From positions 1-64,000 of the forward strand of contig BCIH01000019.1 of assembly GCA_002897115.2 (NCBI GenBank): a stretch of DNA of 64,000 bases, read 5' to 3'. Source of the stretch: Prototheca cutis (Eukaryota > Chlorophyta > Trebouxiophyceae > Chlorellales > Chlorellaceae). Below, one piece after another: positions 2,548 to 63,771 of this stretch. Below the pieces are notes generated by a model. The model made no database searches. It saw only the letters and a list, made by a program, of their open reading frames with translations, and was not told where the DNA came from. The position numbers and the translations under genes were made by a program. Numbering within the stretch: the stretch's first letter is position 1; each line of letters begins with the position of its first letter.

Positions 2548-3118
2548 GCCCGCTCAGCTTTCGCCCTCGCCAGTGAACGTCCTCTATAGATCCCGCATAC
2601 GCGACTATAATGCAGCACTATGTGGCAATGACGCTGCTACCGTCCATGGATTGAATGCCTGATCAGAGTTGACTGACTCCGTGAGGAAACACGGGCAGCA
2701 CGGTTTTCCGCAGCGCTCAGCTTCACAGGACACAAACAATACGACAAGCTGAATACAACTGGACTTATTGCACGATACACATCCTCACTTCCCGTGCTGC
2801 AATGCATGCATGCATGCATCCGTGCCGTGCCGAGACGAAAACATGCATGCTGATTGACGAGGGATCCTCCGTCAAAATATTAGGGGTGGCGCTTCCACCA
2901 GAGGGTGGACACCCACATCTGCGCGATCCTTGCGTCAGAAACATCTGCATTTGTAATCAAGTGTGTCTGATTTAATATTTTTGACAGTCCATACACAACT
3001 GCGGAGTGCCTGTCATGGCGCGATGCGCGGAGGGACAGTCTGCTGACGGCTAGGCCCGGGGTGCGGTGCCCAACCCCAATCTCGAGTGCGGTCGTGCGGT
3101 AGGGGCCGTGGCGTCCAC
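2548..3118. other. Intergenic region between divergent genes Obg and methyltransferase
   Basis: Shared upstream region of the minus-strand Obg gene and the plus-strand methyltransferase. It includes a short ATGC tetranucleotide repeat at about 2803-2819. No gene seen. Confidence 0.5.
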
Positions 3119-5007
3119 ATGCTGTGCGCGCGTGCCCTTCCCAGTGCGCACACCACCTGGTCCGCAGTTACCAGGGCTCTGAGCACGGCAGGCCCTGCCT
3201 CCCTTGGCCCCCAGCTGGTGCGTCTGGTTGGGGTATGCTGTGGCGAGATTGCATGGTGGGCCCTGCGGGGTACATCTCCATCTCCCCAGAGCAAATCGAA
3301 CCCCCTTTCCCCCTACCAACCCGTCTTGATCACCATGCATCAGGTGCGTGACTTCATTCACGAGTCGCTGTATCACCCGGAGCATGGTTACTTTAGCCGT
3401 GGCCCATCGGTGGGCACCCCCGCGGCGCCCATTGACTTTCCATCCTTGGGCAACGACATTGCCTACTTCAACCACGTCCAAGCGCTGTACACAGCACTTC
3501 AGGTCTCGTGGCTGACACCCGTGGAGATTCTGCAGCCGCACTATGGAGCCGCGCTGGCCGCATTCCTTGCGGCACGGTGGCGGGCCGCGGGGGCCCCGGG
3601 ACCGCTGCAGGTCTACGAGATTGGCGGCGGGACGGGCACGCTGGCACTGAACATCCTGGATTACTTGCGCCAGCACCACCCGGACTTGTACGTGACGACG
3701 CGGTATACAAGCATTGAGATCAGCGGGACCCTGGCGGAGACGCAGGCGAAAAGGCTAAGAGCCGATCCGGGGCATGCAGCGCGTTGGGCTGTGGAGCGGC
3801 GGGATGCCACCGACCGGGCAGGCTGGGGCTCGGGCATTCGCCAGGCGACTCCCTGCTTTGTTGTCGCAATGGAAGTGTTGGACAACCTGCCCCACGACCT
3901 TGTGGTCCGTCGTGGGGCTGGGGTGTGGCAGCAAGTAGCTGTGGCCAGTGAAAGCAGGGCCATGGACTCAGGCCAGGCAAACACCGAGCGAGGGGACAGC
4001 ATGGCGACGGCATCTCGTGCGCCACCAGCGCAGCCATCTGTGACTGGTGCGGGGGAGGCAGACACTGGCGACAGGTCTTCTGATGGAGCTGTCACCGCAG
4101 CGAGCACGGCCTTGGAGGCGGCGGAGGAAACGCCACCCCCACCGTCAACATCATCGCCATCCTTGGCACCAACACAACCACAGCCAAAAAGAGGGGGCCA
4201 GCAACAAACAAACGAAACCGTATTCACGGAGATCGAGCAGCCACTGACAGACGAGCTCATCCTGCGGGCGCTGCGTGGAGCAGAGTCAACCCCGGGGTCG
4301 ATTCCCGCGCCCGGCCTGCTGCGGCGGGGCCTGGCGGGCCTGTCGCCACGACTAGCCCCCCGGCAGTCGCTCTTTCTCCCCACGGGCGCGCTGCGGCTTA
4401 TGGACACGCTGCATGCGGTGCTGCCGCGCCACGCGCTCATTGCCGCCGATTTTGACCAGCTTCCGGAAGTAGTTATACGAGGGAAGAATGCCCCGCTGGT
4501 GGCGACCACGGTGAGATTGCATTTATTTGGCTTTGACATTTGGGTGCGTGTCTGGATGAGTCACCGGAAACCCGTTTTCTGCATGTGTTCAGACAAGAAT
4601 GCACACCCAAACGATTGATGTTTCAGGAAAGGGGAGTGACACGGGACCACGGCAGCTACCTCGTTCCAATGGGAACAGCGGACATTTTCTTCCCCAGTGA
4701 TTTTCCCCTGTTGCGTGCGCTGCACGCCGAATCCGCCGAGCGGGCACGGACGAGCCGAGCTCCTGGCGGTGCAAGGGTCACTCCGTCAGCACAGGCGGGA
4801 AGTGTGGTGCCGTCCCAAGCAGCACCAAACCAGTCCCCGGCATCGGCGGGCCACTGGTGCAAGAGCGGGCGGTTCCTGCGGCGGTGGGCCGAGCCGGGGG
4901 CGACCCGCACCAAGTCGGGCTACGAGCCGCTGGTCTCGGATTACACAAACACCTGCTTCCTCGTGACGGGCTGCCCGGAGCTGTGTGCCACTCCGCCCTG
5001 CGATTGA
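3119..5007 (+). CDS. MidA/NDUFAF7-like SAM-dependent methyltransferase (DUF185)
   Basis: Likely mitochondrial protein methyltransferase of the NDUFAF7/MidA family; NDUFAF7 methylates a complex I subunit in animals. Two exons, 3119-4510 and 4627-5007, give 590 aa with phase-0 splicing at ACG|gtgaga and tttcag|GAA. The ATG at 3119 is chosen because it opens an Arg/Ser/Thr-rich mitochondrial-type leader (MLCARALPSAHTTW). The substrate-entry helix (FIHESLYHPEHGYFS) is near residue 80, and the SAM motif I (YEIGGGTGTL) near residue 170. About 120 residues of Ser/Thr/Pro/Gln-rich low complexity split the fold around residues 285-385. The open frame between 3219 and 3340 could hide a small in-frame intron, so the exact N-terminus is uncertain. 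The gene ends convergent with SmE. Confidence 0.82.
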
Positions 5008-25433: not shown

Positions 25434-26361
25434 TCAGACCCACTTGGACTTGGAGCCCCAGGCGTCCCGGGGCGCCGGACGCCCAAAGGGGTGTGGGCTG
25501 AACGCCGTCTTCAGCACGATGAGCAGCGGCATCAGCAGGTACGGTGCGTAGAAAGAAAGCACGACATTCCGGTTGTAGCCGGGGCCATCGTGCACCCAGA
25601 GCTCTGCTAGGATGGGGAACATGGTGGCTGTCACAAAACAGCCGTACATGAGCGCCGGGATCCGGATCCAGTTCTTCCGTGCTGTGGGCGTTTTTTGTCA
25701 TGTTCGAGGAAAGGTTTGTGAGCAGAGGGGTTGTTGTGGTGGTGTCAATGTCAGTCGCTCAAAGAAAGGCCTGGTGCAGCAGCATCCGTCATGCCACCTG
25801 TATCCCATTGGACCCCCACCCACTCCCCCTCCCACCGAGAAAGGCATAGGTGCCGATGAAGAAGAATGGCAGCTGGAGGAACATCTCAGAGTACACAAGG
25901 GACTTGAACCATGGCTTCAGCGGTGGCGTCATCTGCGTAGCGGGGAATGGGCGGGCCAGCGCTGGCCATTACGCACCATGTCCATGGAATCCATGGCACT
26001 CCAAGCAAGGGCGAGAGCTCGTACCCCTTTCTTCCCCACAGCCAGTAAGCCATGCCCACAACACGTTGCCCACCAGGGGGTCATGGTAGCTGTCCAAGTA
26101 CCATTCCGTGAGTTCCAGGAGCTTGGGATGGAACCAATCGTGGCTCACCACTGCATGTTGGTGACGGCGGGGGNGGGGGNTATCGATCATGCCAGCTGGG
26201 AACCCTGCGTGGTACGTCGTCCCCTCCTCGTGATCAGGCCGCGATCCCTGGATGGTCCGGGCATGGACCGGCACCATACCTGCTTGTGAATCGGCAAATA
26301 TTGAAATGAAGATGTGGGAGAACAGGAACAGGGCGATGACAATCTCCAGGAGACGACCCAT
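25434..26361 (-). CDS. TMEM97 / sigma-2-receptor-like EXPERA protein
   Basis: Four-helix endoplasmic reticulum membrane protein of the EXPERA superfamily (TMEM97, EBP, TM6SF). Exons 26280-26361, 26074-26150, 25836-25932, 25434-25681 give 168 codons (167 aa; human TMEM97 is 176). Helix 1 is LLEIVIALFLFSHIFISIF with the conserved D after it (ADSQA). The ELTEWYLDSYHDPL and PPLKPWFKSLVYSEMFLQLP segments match the family, the latter including the conserved Glu. The last helix is FYAPYLLMPLLIVL. The C-terminus is basic (WGSKSKWV), as for ER-retained members. Family members handle sterols or bind sterol-like ligands; function here is inferred. Confidence 0.9.
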
Positions 26362-26532
26362 GGTGCTGGACGTCTGGCTGGTTTGCCGGTGTGAGTACTG
26401 CAGCCCAGAGCCGTATTCCCTTACAGTTGATCACTACAATTTTATTTGTATGCCCAAAAGGACACTCGTTCTGAGAATTACAATTGTGGCCGTGCTGAGG
26501 CTGTCATCGCAAAACGATCACGCATAGCAATC
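26362..26532. other. TMEM97 upstream region up to the transposon
   Basis: Short region between the TMEM97-like start codon and the left TA of the Fanzor element. The insertion sits only about 170 bp upstream of that start codon, so promoter effects are possible. Confidence 0.5.
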
Positions 26533-26534
26533 TA

Positions 26535-26555
26535 CCATGCAGGGCAAAAATAATG
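26535..26555 (+). repeat. Left terminal inverted repeat of Fanzor element
   Basis: Starts CCATGCAGGGCAAAAATA directly after TA; pairs with 28823-28842. Confidence 0.85.
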
Positions 26556-26689
26556 CAGCCAGCTCAGCCAGCAACAGCGTCACATCACCCCGGGGGTTGC
26601 TGGGCATCACGGATGGCCCGAAAATTTTCACTCTCTGCATGGCAATAGGAAGGTGGATGACCATCTTAATGATGGACCACCTCCGGGGC

Positions 26690-26815
26690 TGTTTTTCCTT
26701 TCCGGGCCAAGGAGCACAGGGCTCGTTGCCCCGGGAAGGGAGCCCCCAGGGCTTCGGACCCCAGGGCTGCTTTCCCTTTCCGGGGTAGGGAAGGAGCCCC
26801 GGGGGTTCCCACCCC
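26690..26815. repeat. GC-rich inverted and tandem repeats next to the Fanzor 3' end
   Basis: Repeated CCGGG...AAGGGAGCCCC units on both strands. The arms CCCCGGGAAGGGA (about 26729) and, inverted, CCCCGGAAAGGGA (from 26785) can fold into a strong hairpin just downstream of the Fanzor stop. The segment is absent from the short derivative. Confidence 0.65.
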
Positions 26816-26830
26816 CAGTTGGGAAGGCTA

Positions 26831-28470
26831 TTACCCCTCATGATAGATGGATGTATGTTCATCAGCACTGCGGCGCTGGAAGTGCTCCAGCCGTTGGCCG
26901 GTCTTCCGCAGAGTCTGCACGATGTGCTTCATGTTCAGACACGCCATCAGGTCTCTGTTCCAGAGACGATGCTCGCCCTTCAAGGGCCGGCACTCCTCGT
27001 TGGTGCAGTGCAGCAGCCCGTGGCACAGCACCTCGGGCGTCTGCTCCCTGTAGTGCAGGCGTGGGTTGGGCACGCGGAGGAACGTCTCCACCGTGCANNN
27101 NNNNNNNNNNNNNNNNNNNNNNNNNNNNNNNNNNNNNNNNNNNNNNNNNNNNCGGAGCTTCCGGAAGATGGGCTTGGCATAGTGCTTGCTGAGCGTCGCC
27201 TCGACTTGGCCGAACACGCGCAGGTACGCCAAGAAGTCTGCCACAGTGCAGGCCNTGNNCCCGTTNGGNGCCTCGGNGGCCAGGCGCTGCAGGGCCTTGC
27301 GCACNCCCTTGGTCATGAGCCTCTCACACAGCCTCCGGAACTTGCGCGACCGTGTGAGGAACGCCCACTCCCTGCTGCTGATCCGCATGGTCAGGCGGCA
27401 TCCCGTCTTGTGGCTCGAGTCCTCGTGCATGCAGTACATCAAGTCCCCNCGGCCGGGGNCAATGAACACACACTTGCCGAGCTGCTCTAGCTCCTCGGGG
27501 CTGAGGTCATCGANGTAGCGCAGGCCCTCGAGGCCTCGGCGCTTCACGACTCTGCGTCGTGCGGCCGGCTGCTGCGCACCCGCGCATCCACCTCCTTCCG
27601 GCGGTCCTTGATGTTGAGGATTAGGCTCATGGTGCCCCGAATGTGCTCGCCAAAGTGCTTGCGGACGTTGGCCTCCACCGCAGCGCACTGTGTTTCCCCC
27701 CAGTACTTGGCATCCTGCACGTCAAGGAGCACCCAGCTCGTCTACCACGTGGTCTGGGCCATTATGTGCCAATCCATTATAGACAATCCTGTATTCAGCC
27801 CGCGATGCCAGCAGCACATGCAACCACAACTCAAATCAGTCACCTGGTTCGGTGCGTGGTAGAACTGCCGCCGCTCGTACGCAGTCGCCTGCTGGAACAT
27901 GGGCCAGGACCTCTNGAAACGGGCACGGAAGTACGTCGTTTCGTCGTTGCNTGTTTTCCTCCTAGGGTAGCTGACCATGTAAAGGAAGGCCTCGGCAAAG
28001 AACCTGGGACAGATGAACCGCGTTGCAAAGTCCGCACTGCCCGCCTCGTCCTCCTCGAGCAACATGAGCGCGGCAAAGTGCGAGGCGTGCTGCTTCACGG
28101 GATGCATCTTTTGGACGTACTGCTCCAGAGGACGATGGAACAGGCGCTTCCAGTGGCCAGCACAGAGGCCTTGGCGGCCGTAAAGACGCCCTTGAGCACC
28201 TCCCGCCCGCGGCCCCAAAAGTCGTGGTCCATTGACCTCGCAATCCTGCTGTAACAATGGGTGGATGGATTGGGCAGGGCGGCGTGAAGTCTCCCACCTT
28301 CGGCACCTTCGGTTGGGGGCCCGTTAGAATGCCAACGCGCACGGGACAGCACCGCCTTCCAGAACAGGAACTCACGAGCTGATGTCGACCTGGCTCTCCT
28401 ATTCGTCCAGAAGACCGTGGAACCTGCGCTGCCAGGTCGCACGCACTGACGCCTTGACGGTCGTCATGGC
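26831..28470 (-). pseudogene. Fanzor-type RNA-guided nuclease (eukaryotic TnpB homologue), interrupted
   Basis: Minus-strand gene inside the transposon. The C-terminal two thirds (27560-26831) reads as one frame apart from a 55-N gap. RuvC-like start: GKCVFI-x-PG-x-GDLMYCMHED, where the two ambiguous codons are GNC (Asp fits) and CGN (Arg). After the gap come the zinc-ribbon half CTNEEC and the final RuvC Asp in RLWNRDLMACLNM, the order found in TnpB/Fanzor. The middle acidic residue probably lies in the gap. N-terminal part: KMHPVKQHASHFAALMLLEE (about 28110-28050), then a likely intron 27843-27719, then NVRKHFGEHIRGTMSLILN. Frame breaks at about 27555 and 28155 and at least ten ambiguous bases suggest a decayed copy or a collapsed multicopy consensus. 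Start codon not assignable. Nuclease activity of this copy is doubtful. Confidence 0.8.
27098..27152. other. Assembly gap (55 N) inside the Fanzor gene
   Basis: Unresolved bases; the missing protein part should contain the second RuvC acidic residue and the first zinc-ribbon half. Confidence 0.95.
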
Positions 28471-28555
28471 GCCCCTGGGCGCCTCCTGCCCGCTACCCCA
28501 AAAGTTGCGGGCCATTCGTTTTGCACCCGTCATTGTAATGGGTGCATGAAATAGG
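28178..28555. repeat. Imperfect direct duplication within the transposon
   Basis: The segment 28178-28270 (gacgcccttgagcacctccc, then ccccaaaagtcgtggtccat) is repeated at 28458-28555 (ggcgcccctgggcgcctcct, then ccccaaaagttgcgggccat), each followed by tgtaa..atggg. Both halves encode similar peptides on the minus strand (KASVLAT-WKRLFH and KASVRATWQRRFH). Confidence 0.65.
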
Positions 28556-28822
28556 CAGGTCAGCAGGGAATTCCCGTACGTTATGCCGAGTTCCCACTGG
28601 CCGAGTTCCCACTGGCCGACCCTCCTCGGAAGACCCAGTGCTGTGCCAGGGGCGACTTCCAGGACCTCCTAAAACCTCCTTGCACGACCTGCCCTGCCTT
28701 TCAAGAAGGAACCCAGCCCATTCTCTGAGCCATGAGGCAAGGGAATGCAGTCCGACAGGCATCTTGTTTGAAAAACATGCCCCTGCTGTGCAGGTGGGAG
28801 TCGATGAATCTCGACAAGGTTT

Positions 28823-28842
28823 CATCATTTTGCTCTGCATGG
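28823..28842 (-). repeat. Right terminal inverted repeat of Fanzor element
   Basis: Minus-strand CCATGCAGAGCAAAATGA, followed on the plus strand by TA at 28843-28844. Confidence 0.85.
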
Positions 28843-28984
28843 TAGAGGAACGATTTCTTTTTCAATCGAATCTCTGGGGTGACGGCAGCCCCGCAAATCA
28901 ATGCCAGTTCCAGCCCTTCCAGCCCTCCAGTGCCGCACCCCCTTGTCCCGCACCACAAAAATGCTTGCTCGGCGCCCAGACAAC

Positions 28985-29440
28985 AGTGCATGAACAGCAC
29001 CCCGCCANAACGGAGCATACTTGCGGGCAATCATTCTTCGAAGTTCGCGCGGTGCGCACACGCGGAGGTAGCGCCATCCACACGGCGCGTACCGGCTCTC
29101 GCAGTGCTTGTTACCTCATATGTAAATAGGATAGGCCTTCTTATATGATATATTACACAAATTGGGGCTGCCTATGTGCAGTTGTTAAGGTTTCCCGGCA
29201 GGCCGCCTCAAGCCGCCCTAATCCGCGATGCCGGAGGTGCCCGGGGGGGATTGGGAGCCTGGGTCACACCCAATCTGGGCCCTCTGAACAACCGCTTTCA
29301 GGGGGGATTCCACAAGACAGCCTCCCAACCATGCCTACATATCTATATTAAGTGGTCCCTAGTCAAGGCAAGGGAAGTAATGCCCGGACAACGGCTTGTT
29401 GGCAGCTTAATCTGGGCGCCAGGTTCAAGGTCCACANTGG
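28985..29440 (+). repeat. Diverged dispersed repeat, copy A (about 455 bp)
   Basis: Collinear with 59066-59515 at roughly 60-70 percent identity by eye. Shared blocks include aacggagcatac followed by gggcaat/aggcaat, tcatatgtaa.atag / tcatatatgagcataatag, gattccacaaga / gattccgcaaga, and ggcag..t..tctggg.gccag. No coding capacity or inverted ends recognised. Copy A begins about 140 bp right of the Fanzor element. Confidence 0.65.
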
Positions 29441-47021: not shown

Positions 47022-47096
<75 letters not shown>

Positions 47097-48992
47097 ACCC
47101 CCACCACACACACACACACACACACCCCATACCTGCAGGTCCTGGACTCTCTGCCGGGCGATACAAAGGGCCGGGTGCTACTGCAGCTGGTCTTGAAGCC
47201 GTGCGTCTCTTGGGATGGGAAAGGCACTTTGTTGGGTGCGCGGGGTGATTGAGGGAAGTGAGTGCCCGGGTGGTGTCAGACCTCGTCTCGGTTGACCAGA
47301 TCTTTGGCCGGTCTCAGAGACGTAGACTCTGATCGTAAGCAGGCCTGACAAGAGCTGAATGAATGGAGCCCGATACATGCCAATCAGCTGGCCTGGCGAT
47401 GCCGGTGACAGTGGCATGCGGCGATTGATCAGCAACACCACGAATATCTCACAGGATCACCACTAACCCCCCACATTACTGTGCAGAAATGCGCATGTCA
47501 TGAACGGCAAGACGGCACTGTCTTCGGTGGTGTTGACCACCTCTGCCTCAGAACGCTTGAGCGTCAATGCCTGCAAGGGCGGCGGCCTAGTGGAGGGCCC
47601 CGCCGCCGTTGTCGTGTGTTCCCTGTTGGGGTGAGTCCCGACACCTGGCTGTCAGCGGATGCCATGGGGTCCAAATGAACACTTACTTTGCTGCCACAGA
47701 TCCACCCATGTTATCACGCCCCTTGCTTATTGATGAAGCTCCGCTTTCCTACTGCAACCCATATTAAAAAACAGGCAGATGGGTGTGGCGCCGTCGGCCT
47801 TCTGCTCTCCAGACCCGGCGGTGTTCAAGTCACTGACTCAGGGGCATGCGGGCGTGCCTGCCCACGTCAAGGCCAAGTCCGGCACCCTCTTTCCTATCCC
47901 CGCTGGCATCTGCTTCCTCGAGTCGGTGCGGACTTGTGTATTGCCGGTGGGAATGTTGGTTTGATATGAGGCCGTGGGAAGCCTGGCAAGGGCCTGCTTG
48001 CATGACATGGAAGATGGGGTTCCGCCGTCCTGCAGTCAAGACTCCACGACACCACAACTGCCAGCAACCTCCCCCCTTCCCACGACACAAACAGCCGGCA
48101 ATCTTCATCCCTCGGAACGACATGCGGGCGCTGGAACTGGCCCGGGCCGGGGGCACCTCGGCCACGTTTGACATTGTGGTGCACAAGAAAGATGGAACGG
48201 TGCAGGAATTTGACATGCTGCCCCGGGACGAGGCCGGACCCATTGAATGTAGGTGGACTAGAAGCGCAGTGCTGATTGATGACTGGATTCGTGTGGATAA
48301 GTATGTTTGGCATTCCAGCCAACCCAGCCCCTTGGGCCCTACACCGCCGATCCGCTCGGCATTCAACAACATACCCACATGCAGCATATGCCATGCGCAT
48401 GGACATTCCCATGGGATGCCCCGAGGGCTCTGGCGAGGACAGCGAAGAGGACGCAGCGGCTTCAGACGATGAGCAGTCAGAGGGTGCCGCGTCTTCAAAT
48501 GCGGACGTGCGTGTGTGGTGGCGTTTGCTTGTGGTGCAATGGGGATGTTTGGCCCCTACCCAGCGGTGTGCTTGCTTCCACACACAATGAACCTGCAACA
48601 TGCCTTACACCCCCACCCATCATTACATAATCCCTCCGCAGGACGAGGACTTCAACCCAGCATCGTCCAGCAGCTCCGGCAAAGAAGAGGGACCGTATGA
48701 TGGTGAGGGAGGGTGCCGTTTCGTGGTGGCCCCGATGCGGCAGCTCTGTAATCCACCGATTTTGATTTGATGTGTTCCGCGATAGCAGCATCTGGCGTCC
48801 TTTGTGTGTGCATGGGAGGCTCACCCACTTCCCACCAACGCATGCACAGGCTCCGATGGCGACGAAGATGGCGCCGAGTCTGACGAATCAGCGGATCTTG
48901 TCTCCGAGGACGACATGTCAGTGGCAGCGCTTCGCAAGATTATGGACAGTGAAGGCGCCGCCAGAAAAAGGCAGCGTGTCGCCACGCCGTGA
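46361..48992 (+). CDS. Rtt106/POB3-type histone chaperone
   Basis: Tandem PH-like histone chaperone of the Rtt106 family, acting in the nucleus on H3-H4. Nine exons: 46361-46554, 46771-46867, 47139-47200, 47487-47630, 47775-47925, 48095-48248, 48385-48506, 48642-48702, 48850-48992; 376 codons (375 aa). First PH module: YDASFRTSVLSLENAKGSVS then ISHVVVLDSLPGDTKGRVLL. Second: SGTLFPIPAGICFLESPAIF, then a segment opening IPRNDMRALELARAGG and a strand pair FDIVVHKKDGTVQEF. Both match Rtt106 spacing. The C-terminal 100 residues are acidic (SGEDSEEDAAASDDEQSEG) and end in a basic KRQRVATP. One ambiguous base at 46512. Intron 2 holds a 64-base poly-C run. Confidence 0.85.
47033..47096 (+). repeat. 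64-base poly-C tract in Rtt106-like intron 2
   Basis: Unbroken C run, followed by CCACC and an (AC)n run, then the acceptor acctgcag at 47138. It acts in place of a normal polypyrimidine tract. Confidence 0.95.
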
Positions 48993-54246: not shown

Positions 54247-54300
<54 letters not shown>

Positions 54301-60587: not shown

Positions 60588-60650
<63 letters not shown>

Positions 60651-63408: not shown

Positions 63409-63771
63409 CCATGCAGGGCAAAAATAATGCAACCAGCTCAGCCAGCAACAGCGTCACATCACCCCGGGGGTTGCTGGGCATCACTGATGGCCGAAAATTT
63501 TCACCCCCCACAGGGTAAGAGGAAGGTGGATGACCATCTTAATGATGGACCACCAAGGTGTGACAATTGTCGTGCCAGGCTCAATGTCCAGGACTTTCTA
63601 AAGCCTCTTTGCACGACCTGTCCTGCTGCCAAGAAGGAACCCAACCCATCCTCTAAGCGATGCGGCCAGGGAATGTGGTGAAACAGGCATTTTGTTTGGG
63701 AGGCATGCCTTTGCTGTGCAGGTGGGAGTCAGCGAATTTCGGCAAGGTTGCATCATTTTTGCCCTACACGG
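63409..63771. mobile_element. MITE: internally deleted derivative of the Fanzor transposon
   Basis: 363 bp flanked by TA (63407-63408 and 63772-63773). Ends CCATGCAGGGCAAAAATA and, inverted, CCGTGTAGGGCAAAAATG. Positions 63409-63555 match 26535-26682 (left end of the full element), and 63571-63771 match about 28640-28842 (right end), both at high identity, in the same order and orientation. The Fanzor gene and GC-rich hairpin block are missing. A 90-codon frame through it (with CDNC and CTTC pairs) is probably fortuitous. Confidence 0.88.

Follow-up and report, generated by a model that had tools for sequence, protein, structure and literature searches.

The question raised by this locus is what a Fanzor nuclease does for a transposon in which no transposase frame is seen. 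The locus lies in a stretch of 64,000 nucleotides from the genome of the colourless alga Prototheca cutis (contig BCIH01000019.1, positions 1 to 64,000; the window from here on), where a copy of a Fanzor1 transposon occupies 26535..28842 with its gene on the minus strand. The copy is a deletion derivative, recognised by its ends, by the homology of its gene to Fanzor and by comparison of its borders with those of other copies, and it belongs to a family that is large for a 19.9-Mb genome, with a few hundred copies. The answer that we favour, with moderate confidence, is that the family has terminal inverted repeats (TIRs) and TA target site duplications (TSDs), codes for a Fanzor1 and depends on a transposase supplied in trans, and that its copies supply guides for the cutting of vacated TSTA sites (S being G or C), with an effect on which insertions survive.

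The TIRs of the window copy, CCATGCAGGGCAAAAATA at the gene-downstream end (26535..26552, plus strand) and CCATGCAGAGCAAAATGA at the gene-upstream end (28825..28842, minus strand), are identical at 15 of 18 positions and resemble the ends of other copies. The letters of the window and comparison of flanks place the TA duplications directly outside them, at 26533..26534 on the gene-downstream or guide side and at 28843..28844 on the gene-upstream side. The gene-downstream end is called the left end below, and the gene-upstream end the right end. The genome searched comprised 19,886,974 bases in 23 contigs and may be incomplete; element DNA gave at least 71 matches in it (best 40 of 368 candidates scored), while the end patterns matched 227 right ends (two mismatches allowed) and 301 left ends (one mismatch allowed), against none for the reversed patterns used as controls. 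Among the ends read (77 left and 114 right, window copy included) there is a common stop point, with TA within two bases in 64 of the left and 109 of the right ends, and the flanks beyond TA are unrelated in the 46 copies read at both ends. Shared stop points, silent controls and unrelated flanks together establish that the element borders are real. The matching repeats and flanking TA of the first-pass annotation are thus confirmed, as is its placement of the element in an algal genome, and the homology running past the TA borders that it had named as counter-evidence was not seen.

The ends were sampled as follows. The first 100 of the 227 right ends yielded 80 that were fetched, 19 within copies already known (part of which were fetched) and one that was left. 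From 100 of the 301 left ends, 16 were fetched to complete right ends and 20 were taken unpaired from contigs C1 and C2; four further right-end completions had no left end among those listed. Flank counts exclude the ends with no TA within two bases (5/114 right, 13/77 left), and include both of two abutting right ends in copy L031, which share one N-masked flank.

Most of the copies sampled at the left end (47 of 77) are derivatives of 0.36–0.70 kb in which the Fanzor gene is largely or wholly missing. By size, 23 are shorter than 0.4 kb, 24 measure 0.54–0.70 kb, 15 are at least 1.7 kb (some of these contain long N runs), and in 15 the right end was absent from the fetched stretch. Relative to a near-complete copy, L014 (G000:C20; 3.43 kb, with some ambiguous letters), the short class joins positions 1–190 to 3284–3429, and the middle class joins 1–159 to about 2900–3431, so that a small part of the 3′ coding end of the Fanzor gene is kept in the latter. 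Internally deleted, numerous and retaining both ends of the full element, which align to L014, these copies have the structure of miniature inverted-repeat transposable elements (MITEs) or ghost loci, and the repeats with TA duplication fit the Tc1/mariner type, to which the family is not assigned here. A second member of the family within the window (63409..63771, minus strand) is such a derivative, 363 bp long, with no Fanzor gene and with TA on both sides.

Does the family encode a nuclease? The 296-aa frame of the window copy matches the solved structures of Parasitella parasitica Fanzor1 (E=1e-24) and SpuFz1 (5e-5), and GDLMYCMHED, CTNEEC and WNRD were found where the first-pass annotation had read them on the minus strand. 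The check that it had proposed, by Fanzor/TnpB profiles, came out divided: Pfam and NCBIfam scans of the window frames gave no match, but the solved Fanzor1 proteins did. L014 is more complete, with a 390-nt exon 1, a short inferred intron and an exon 2 of 677 codons with no stop. Searched against the solved proteins, this exon reaches E=4.8e-60 with Parasitella Fanzor1 and 2.1e-30 with SpuFz1, and it matches Pfam PF07282 at E=3e-4, under the cut-off of that family. Its motifs IDPGR, IDEFRTS, CPAC/CTNEKC and WNRD provide the D-E-D residues and a C4 zinc finger; the IDEFRTS stretch aligns with Parasitella Fanzor1, and we take it to carry the rearranged RuvC-II glutamate. Similarity to the solved Fanzor1 proteins is decisive for the assignment, by which the window gene and its family are classed as Fanzor1.

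Another copy (C7:1136158-1138182) is open over all 677 codons and 90% identical to L014. The ratio of nonsynonymous to synonymous divergence (dN/dS) against L014 has a median of 0.44 and stays below 1 in 19 of 20 copies, with L019 alone exceeding 1 (1.88, at very low divergence), and among further pairs with L020 or L026 it is below 1 in 14 of 15, L026–L030 giving 1.76. These pairs have common ancestry, and the values are an indication, not a formal test, that the Fanzor frame has been under coding constraint.

The gene of the window copy is heavily damaged. Exon 1 (27844..28232, minus strand) is disrupted in frame, with 389 nt against 390 in L014, and is followed by an inferred GT...AG intron (27742..27843, minus strand), placed from the frames and splice-site letters and similar to one in L014. 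An internal-deletion junction (27569..27597, minus strand), where the anchors are 27 nt apart against 997 nt in L014, marks the loss of about 970 bp of exon 2 coding sequence. Five other copies (L009, L010, L012, L029 and L032) have a near-identical deletion with slightly different junctions (27 or 28 nt left), which looks to lie in an imperfect direct repeat. In L009, L012, L029 and L032 the anchors are 28 nt apart, a loss of 969 nt relative to L014 and a multiple of three, and the exon-2 match of L032 sits within an open frame of 363 aa. The codon of the RuvC-I catalytic aspartate in the window copy (27458..27460, minus strand) contains an ambiguous letter (N) and is Asp in L014. An assembly gap of 55 N (27098..27152), at which six copies that align closely on both sides (L010, L014, L026, L029, L030 and L032) have 235 bp, obscures the glutamate of RuvC-II and the first cysteines of the zinc motif, leaving the second cysteine pair (CTNEEC, 26990..27007, minus strand) as the readable part of the zinc finger, besides the RuvC-III aspartate of WNRD (26951..26953, minus strand). 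Given the deletion and the out-of-frame exon 1, no complete Fanzor can come from the window gene; the copy once encoded a nuclease and could now contribute a guide RNA at most. Its description as a Fanzor-only element therefore needs qualifying: it does carry a Fanzor gene, and no transposase frame was seen within it, but it is a broken derivative and one of a few hundred copies. As to the assembly (strain JCM 15793, GCA_002897115.2), the available part of PMC11302234 gives HiSeq 2500 sequencing and 20,029,045 bp in 46 scaffolds, and that of PMC12633428 a genome of 20.0 Mb with 61.3% GC; short-read scaffolding would explain the N runs.

The two sides of the element differ in their flanks. Read inward, TSTA (its TA being the TSD) flanks 75 of 109 gene-upstream ends and 16 of 64 downstream ends (Fisher 2e-8). 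Before the TA, upstream flanks have T in 73% and, next to the TA, G or C in 95%; read likewise inward, the corresponding figures downstream are 33% and 64%. Of the 2011 TA sites in the window 14.8% are TSTA, and the downstream side is slightly above this background (p=0.03). In the 46 copies with both flanks read, TSTA is found upstream only in 27, downstream only in two, on both sides in seven and on neither in ten (p=1.6e-6). The upstream motif occurs in 16/22 short, 16/23 middle and 10/18 long copies, in 28/40 copies read at the upstream end only, and in 5/6 others. Beyond position −4 the flanks hold little information. At the occupied site, GG stands directly before TA in 60 of the 64 left ends with TA, giving GGTA, whereas position −4 of the upstream flanks is T in 73% and G in 2%. 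The window copy has 5′-TCTA on the gene strand (28843..28846, minus strand), which fits the motif.

TSTA is predicted from these flanks to be the target-adjacent motif (TAM) of the nuclease. Insertion at TSTA places the four-base motif directly before the guide sequence in the empty site, which is the geometry of a TAM, and there is precedent in SpuFz1, with its TAM CATA and the conserved CA before the 5′ repeat. The predicted guide of the window copy is the 15 nt of flanking DNA adjoining TA (26518..26532, minus strand), by analogy with the guide RNAs of SpuFz1 and SfAV. The side-specific flank bias, and the excess of CA on the RNA side described below, are apparently new.

The last 147 bp or so of the element (26535..26681, minus strand) are predicted to be the scaffold of the guide RNA. 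In the predicted fold a hairpin comes first, then a long branched helix, the outermost pairs of which join the terminal repeat and the UA of the TSD to a segment about 100 nt upstream. Compared with shuffled sequences, the fold energy has z −2.0 in the window copy (matched by 7 of 200 shuffles) and z −2.8 in the predicted scaffold of the second window copy (1/200), against z −0.3 at the opposite end of the element (72/200). An alignment of 74 rows was made from 73 full-length left ends with no more than two N and the window copy; the last 147 bp aligned in 66 rows, the eight truncated or aberrant ones being dropped. Across these 66 copies pairing is retained in 97% of cells, against 36–61% with slid partners, and the region is less diverse than the 5′ end in the short (p=0.003) and middle (p=0.03) classes. 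After filtering by repeat shape, under rules that differ by side and removed 5/77 left and 23/114 right ends, CA replaces TA as the TSD in 11 of 72 ends on the RNA side and in 1 of 91 at the opposite end (p=6e-4); the unfiltered counts are 11/77 and 1/114. Where the other end of a CA copy was read, it is still TA in seven of eight. Such a change may turn a predicted G.U pair into G-C, or may make the occupied junction less like a TAM, and the data fit both. A search of Rfam with window positions 26400-29000 gave no match at gathering score. Two microRNA matches in the GC-rich 3′ part were far under their gathering scores and were judged to be chance; a GC-rich stretch at 26736-26812, in the 3′ untranslated region of the Fanzor gene, has a weak match to a microRNA family, again below gathering score.

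These observations can be combined into a mechanism. A transposase acting in trans would move copies with intact ends into TA sites, of which the borders and TA are observed. In a few copies such as L014 the two exons would give a nuclease of about 807 aa that has the D-E-D residues and zinc finger and is presumably active. The last ~147 bp would be transcribed into the scaffold, in which the TIR and TSD pair with the internal segment, and the DNA past TA would serve as guide. Judging from the flank statistics, the ribonucleoprotein would recognise the unoccupied insertion site, in which 5′-TSTA directly precedes the guide sequence, and the occupied site would be spared because the element end and TSD, usually GGTA, mismatch at −4. 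Cutting of the empty site on a sister or homologue would lead to recombination that restores the element, so that copies adjoining TSTA would survive excision better, and small guide-only copies would benefit in trans. The discussion in PMC10432273, in the part available, raises the ideas that bacterial TnpB serves retention in a comparable way and that ghost loci give help in trans. More tentatively, and with less confidence than in the mechanism as a whole, the TSTA asymmetry could be a genome-wide fossil of Fanzor cutting at vacated sites, with guides from many nuclease-less copies, which decided the insertions that survived and in which self and empty site were told apart by T versus G at −4. 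With hundreds of ends, two marked sides and a majority of copies without the nuclease, the family makes the role of a Fanzor testable. It yields an exact TAM prediction (TSTA, with G at −4 disfavoured) and a candidate guide-RNA scaffold, and the side-specific flank statistic can be applied to other Fanzor families, asking whether the nuclease shaped survival.

Several points weigh against this mechanism. The upstream flank is not TSTA in 31% of cases, and no greater age was measurable for the copies concerned (p=0.19). Upstream of the second window copy stands CCTA, and in the first TSTA lies at both ends. The predicted RNA structure gains no support from covariation, since 476 of 500 letter shuffles scored equal or better, and within the 0.6-kb copies the lower diversity of the last 147 bp is not significant when the comparison is with their middle part (p=0.28). 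Intact exon 2 of full length (677 aa, at least 90% identity, stop-free) is rare, L014 and one further copy being the two cases among the matches listed (best 66 of 316 candidates scored). The TAMs of other Fanzor1 proteins differ: the available text gives TTAAN for GtFz1 (PMC10432273) and, for the nearest solved relative, PpFz1, ATN (PMC11423790).

Nor did family searches of the genome reveal a transposase for these elements. These searches found no DDE_3 or DDE_Tnp_4 protein, with positive controls that worked (the DDE_3 control responding in three cases), and found none of Transposase_1, DDE_1 or PF05699 (the last not a TA family), with controls that were silent. Among 100 of the 307 TIR matches (C1 to part of C4) no pair of ends hinted at a different interior, spacing being judged by eye. 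The mariner-like transposase sharing the ends that the first-pass annotation had postulated was therefore not recovered, and supply in trans is retained here as a presumption.

The main rival explanation dispenses with the nuclease altogether. An orientation-sensing transposase, preferring TSTA at the gene-upstream end, could yield the same flank bias; the Fanzor, which might be inactive, would then just be carried along, and the small copies would be plain MITEs. That the bias is equally strong in the smallest and the long copies suits this explanation, as do the lack of a measurable age difference between TSTA and other copies and the fact that GTA is somewhat favoured on both sides (G at −3 in 59% and 52%, against 37% of background TA sites). 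A two-fold symmetric target preference is the rule for TA-inserting DDE transposases, which counts against such an enzyme. The asymmetry also persists in the 21 copies whose TIRs differ at no more than two of 12 letters (TSTA in 13 vs 1, p=0.0018), an observation that weighs against it but is not decisive, and neither the CA excess confined to the RNA side nor the constraint on the Fanzor frame is explained. We regard it as unlikely, though deserving serious consideration.

It is very improbable that the letters TS are simply part of the element's own end, with no target motif at all. The T found at −4 in 73% of upstream ends would agree with this; however, relatedness of the elements does not clearly account for the letters at −3 and −4 (p 0.08 and 0.82, 102 copies), whereas it does for the two variable internal columns tested (0 of 300 shuffles each). 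Inheritance of these flank letters with the element is thus not clearly seen, G and C at −3 are each found with both TIR types, and there is little information beyond −4. The proposal was rejected on the relatedness test. Equally improbable is a domesticated or regulatory use, in which truncated Fanzor copies or guide RNAs would act on gene expression, since lesions differ among copies and flanks are unrelated, even though several deletion copies retain RuvC and zinc-finger parts and a probable EXPERA gene follows closely downstream of the window copy.

This neighbour (window 25434-26361) is a probable EXPERA/EBP gene, with PF05241 in two frames, on the same strand as the element gene; about 170 bp separate its likely start codon from the guide end of the element, which lies upstream. 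Elsewhere in the window, nearly pure runs of C or G of 53–80 bases (47023-47102, 54247-54299 and 60590-60649) are unusual and possibly assembly artefacts.

Diverged Fanzor genes are also present in the genome. Three lie within 9 kb at G000:C4:1443462-1452420 (L153 and L154 hold part of this region) and are 50–69% identical, and others are found at C2:1189504 (50%) and C12:235835 (40%); two of the diverged genes have open frames of 680 and 698 aa. Two of the diverged genes, in L153 and L154, were inspected for terminal repeats and a comparable 3′ RNA and showed no clear ends, which makes them unusable as a partner for covariation. The one protein-database homologue among the best 8000 scored candidates, P0002 (an ENA protein of 647 aa), is the closest, at 72% over the aligned part; it has WGRN at the site expected for the RuvC-III WNRD and so may be nuclease-dead. 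No match to the window frame was found in phage records by tblastn, and no relative of P0002 in viral contigs at a sensitivity for close relatives. Structure prediction from a four-sequence alignment gave a mean predicted local distance difference test score (pLDDT) of 42. In L014, the start codon region of the Fanzor gene (about 110 bp) is duplicated about 290 bp upstream (positions 306-415 and 593-702, ~80% identical); the duplicate reads MARNFWGSGREAPRG and was seen in the majority of the 15 long copies that were compared.

The architecture of the family, with its ghost loci, is that of Spu-1, a type already known. As described in the available part of PMC10432273, Spu-1 of Spizellomyces punctatus likewise combines a Fanzor1 (SpuFz1) with inverted repeats between which no transposase was found, and has 134 ghost loci that keep the RNA region against 42 loci with full or partial Fanzor, which the nuclease-less copies of P. 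cutis resemble. Spu-1 elements also have an asymmetric dinucleotide, the conserved CA, by the 5′ repeat, and SpuFz1 has an experimentally found TAM, CATA, that ends in TA, much as in the P. cutis pattern. In P. cutis, by contrast, a different motif, TSTA (S being G or C), is predicted, the derivatives fall into two main size classes besides the internal deletions, the Fanzor gene has an inferred intron, and diverged Fanzor genes of 50–69% identity share the genome. The Fanzor1-only elements of the PUl-4 type, according to the accessible text of PMC3627910, also have TIRs and a TA duplication; their TIRs match those of confirmed Mariner elements, whereas for the P. cutis family no Mariner partner was found. 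Among the literature seen, PMC12633428 alone, in the portion available, names both Fanzor and Prototheca; it reports for a related alga, Auxenochlorella UTEX 250-A, that the most abundant repeat encodes a Fanzor and is uncharacterised, a likeness drawn from the description. The Fanzor1 element of SfAV, as presented in the available part of PMC10711439, is non-autonomous with Fanzor1 only, and its TIR and TSD are proposed to form part of the scaffold of the guide RNA (reRNA), as here. It differs in its insect virus host, in its two copies and in that expression of the reRNA was shown, while the scaffold in P. cutis is predicted.

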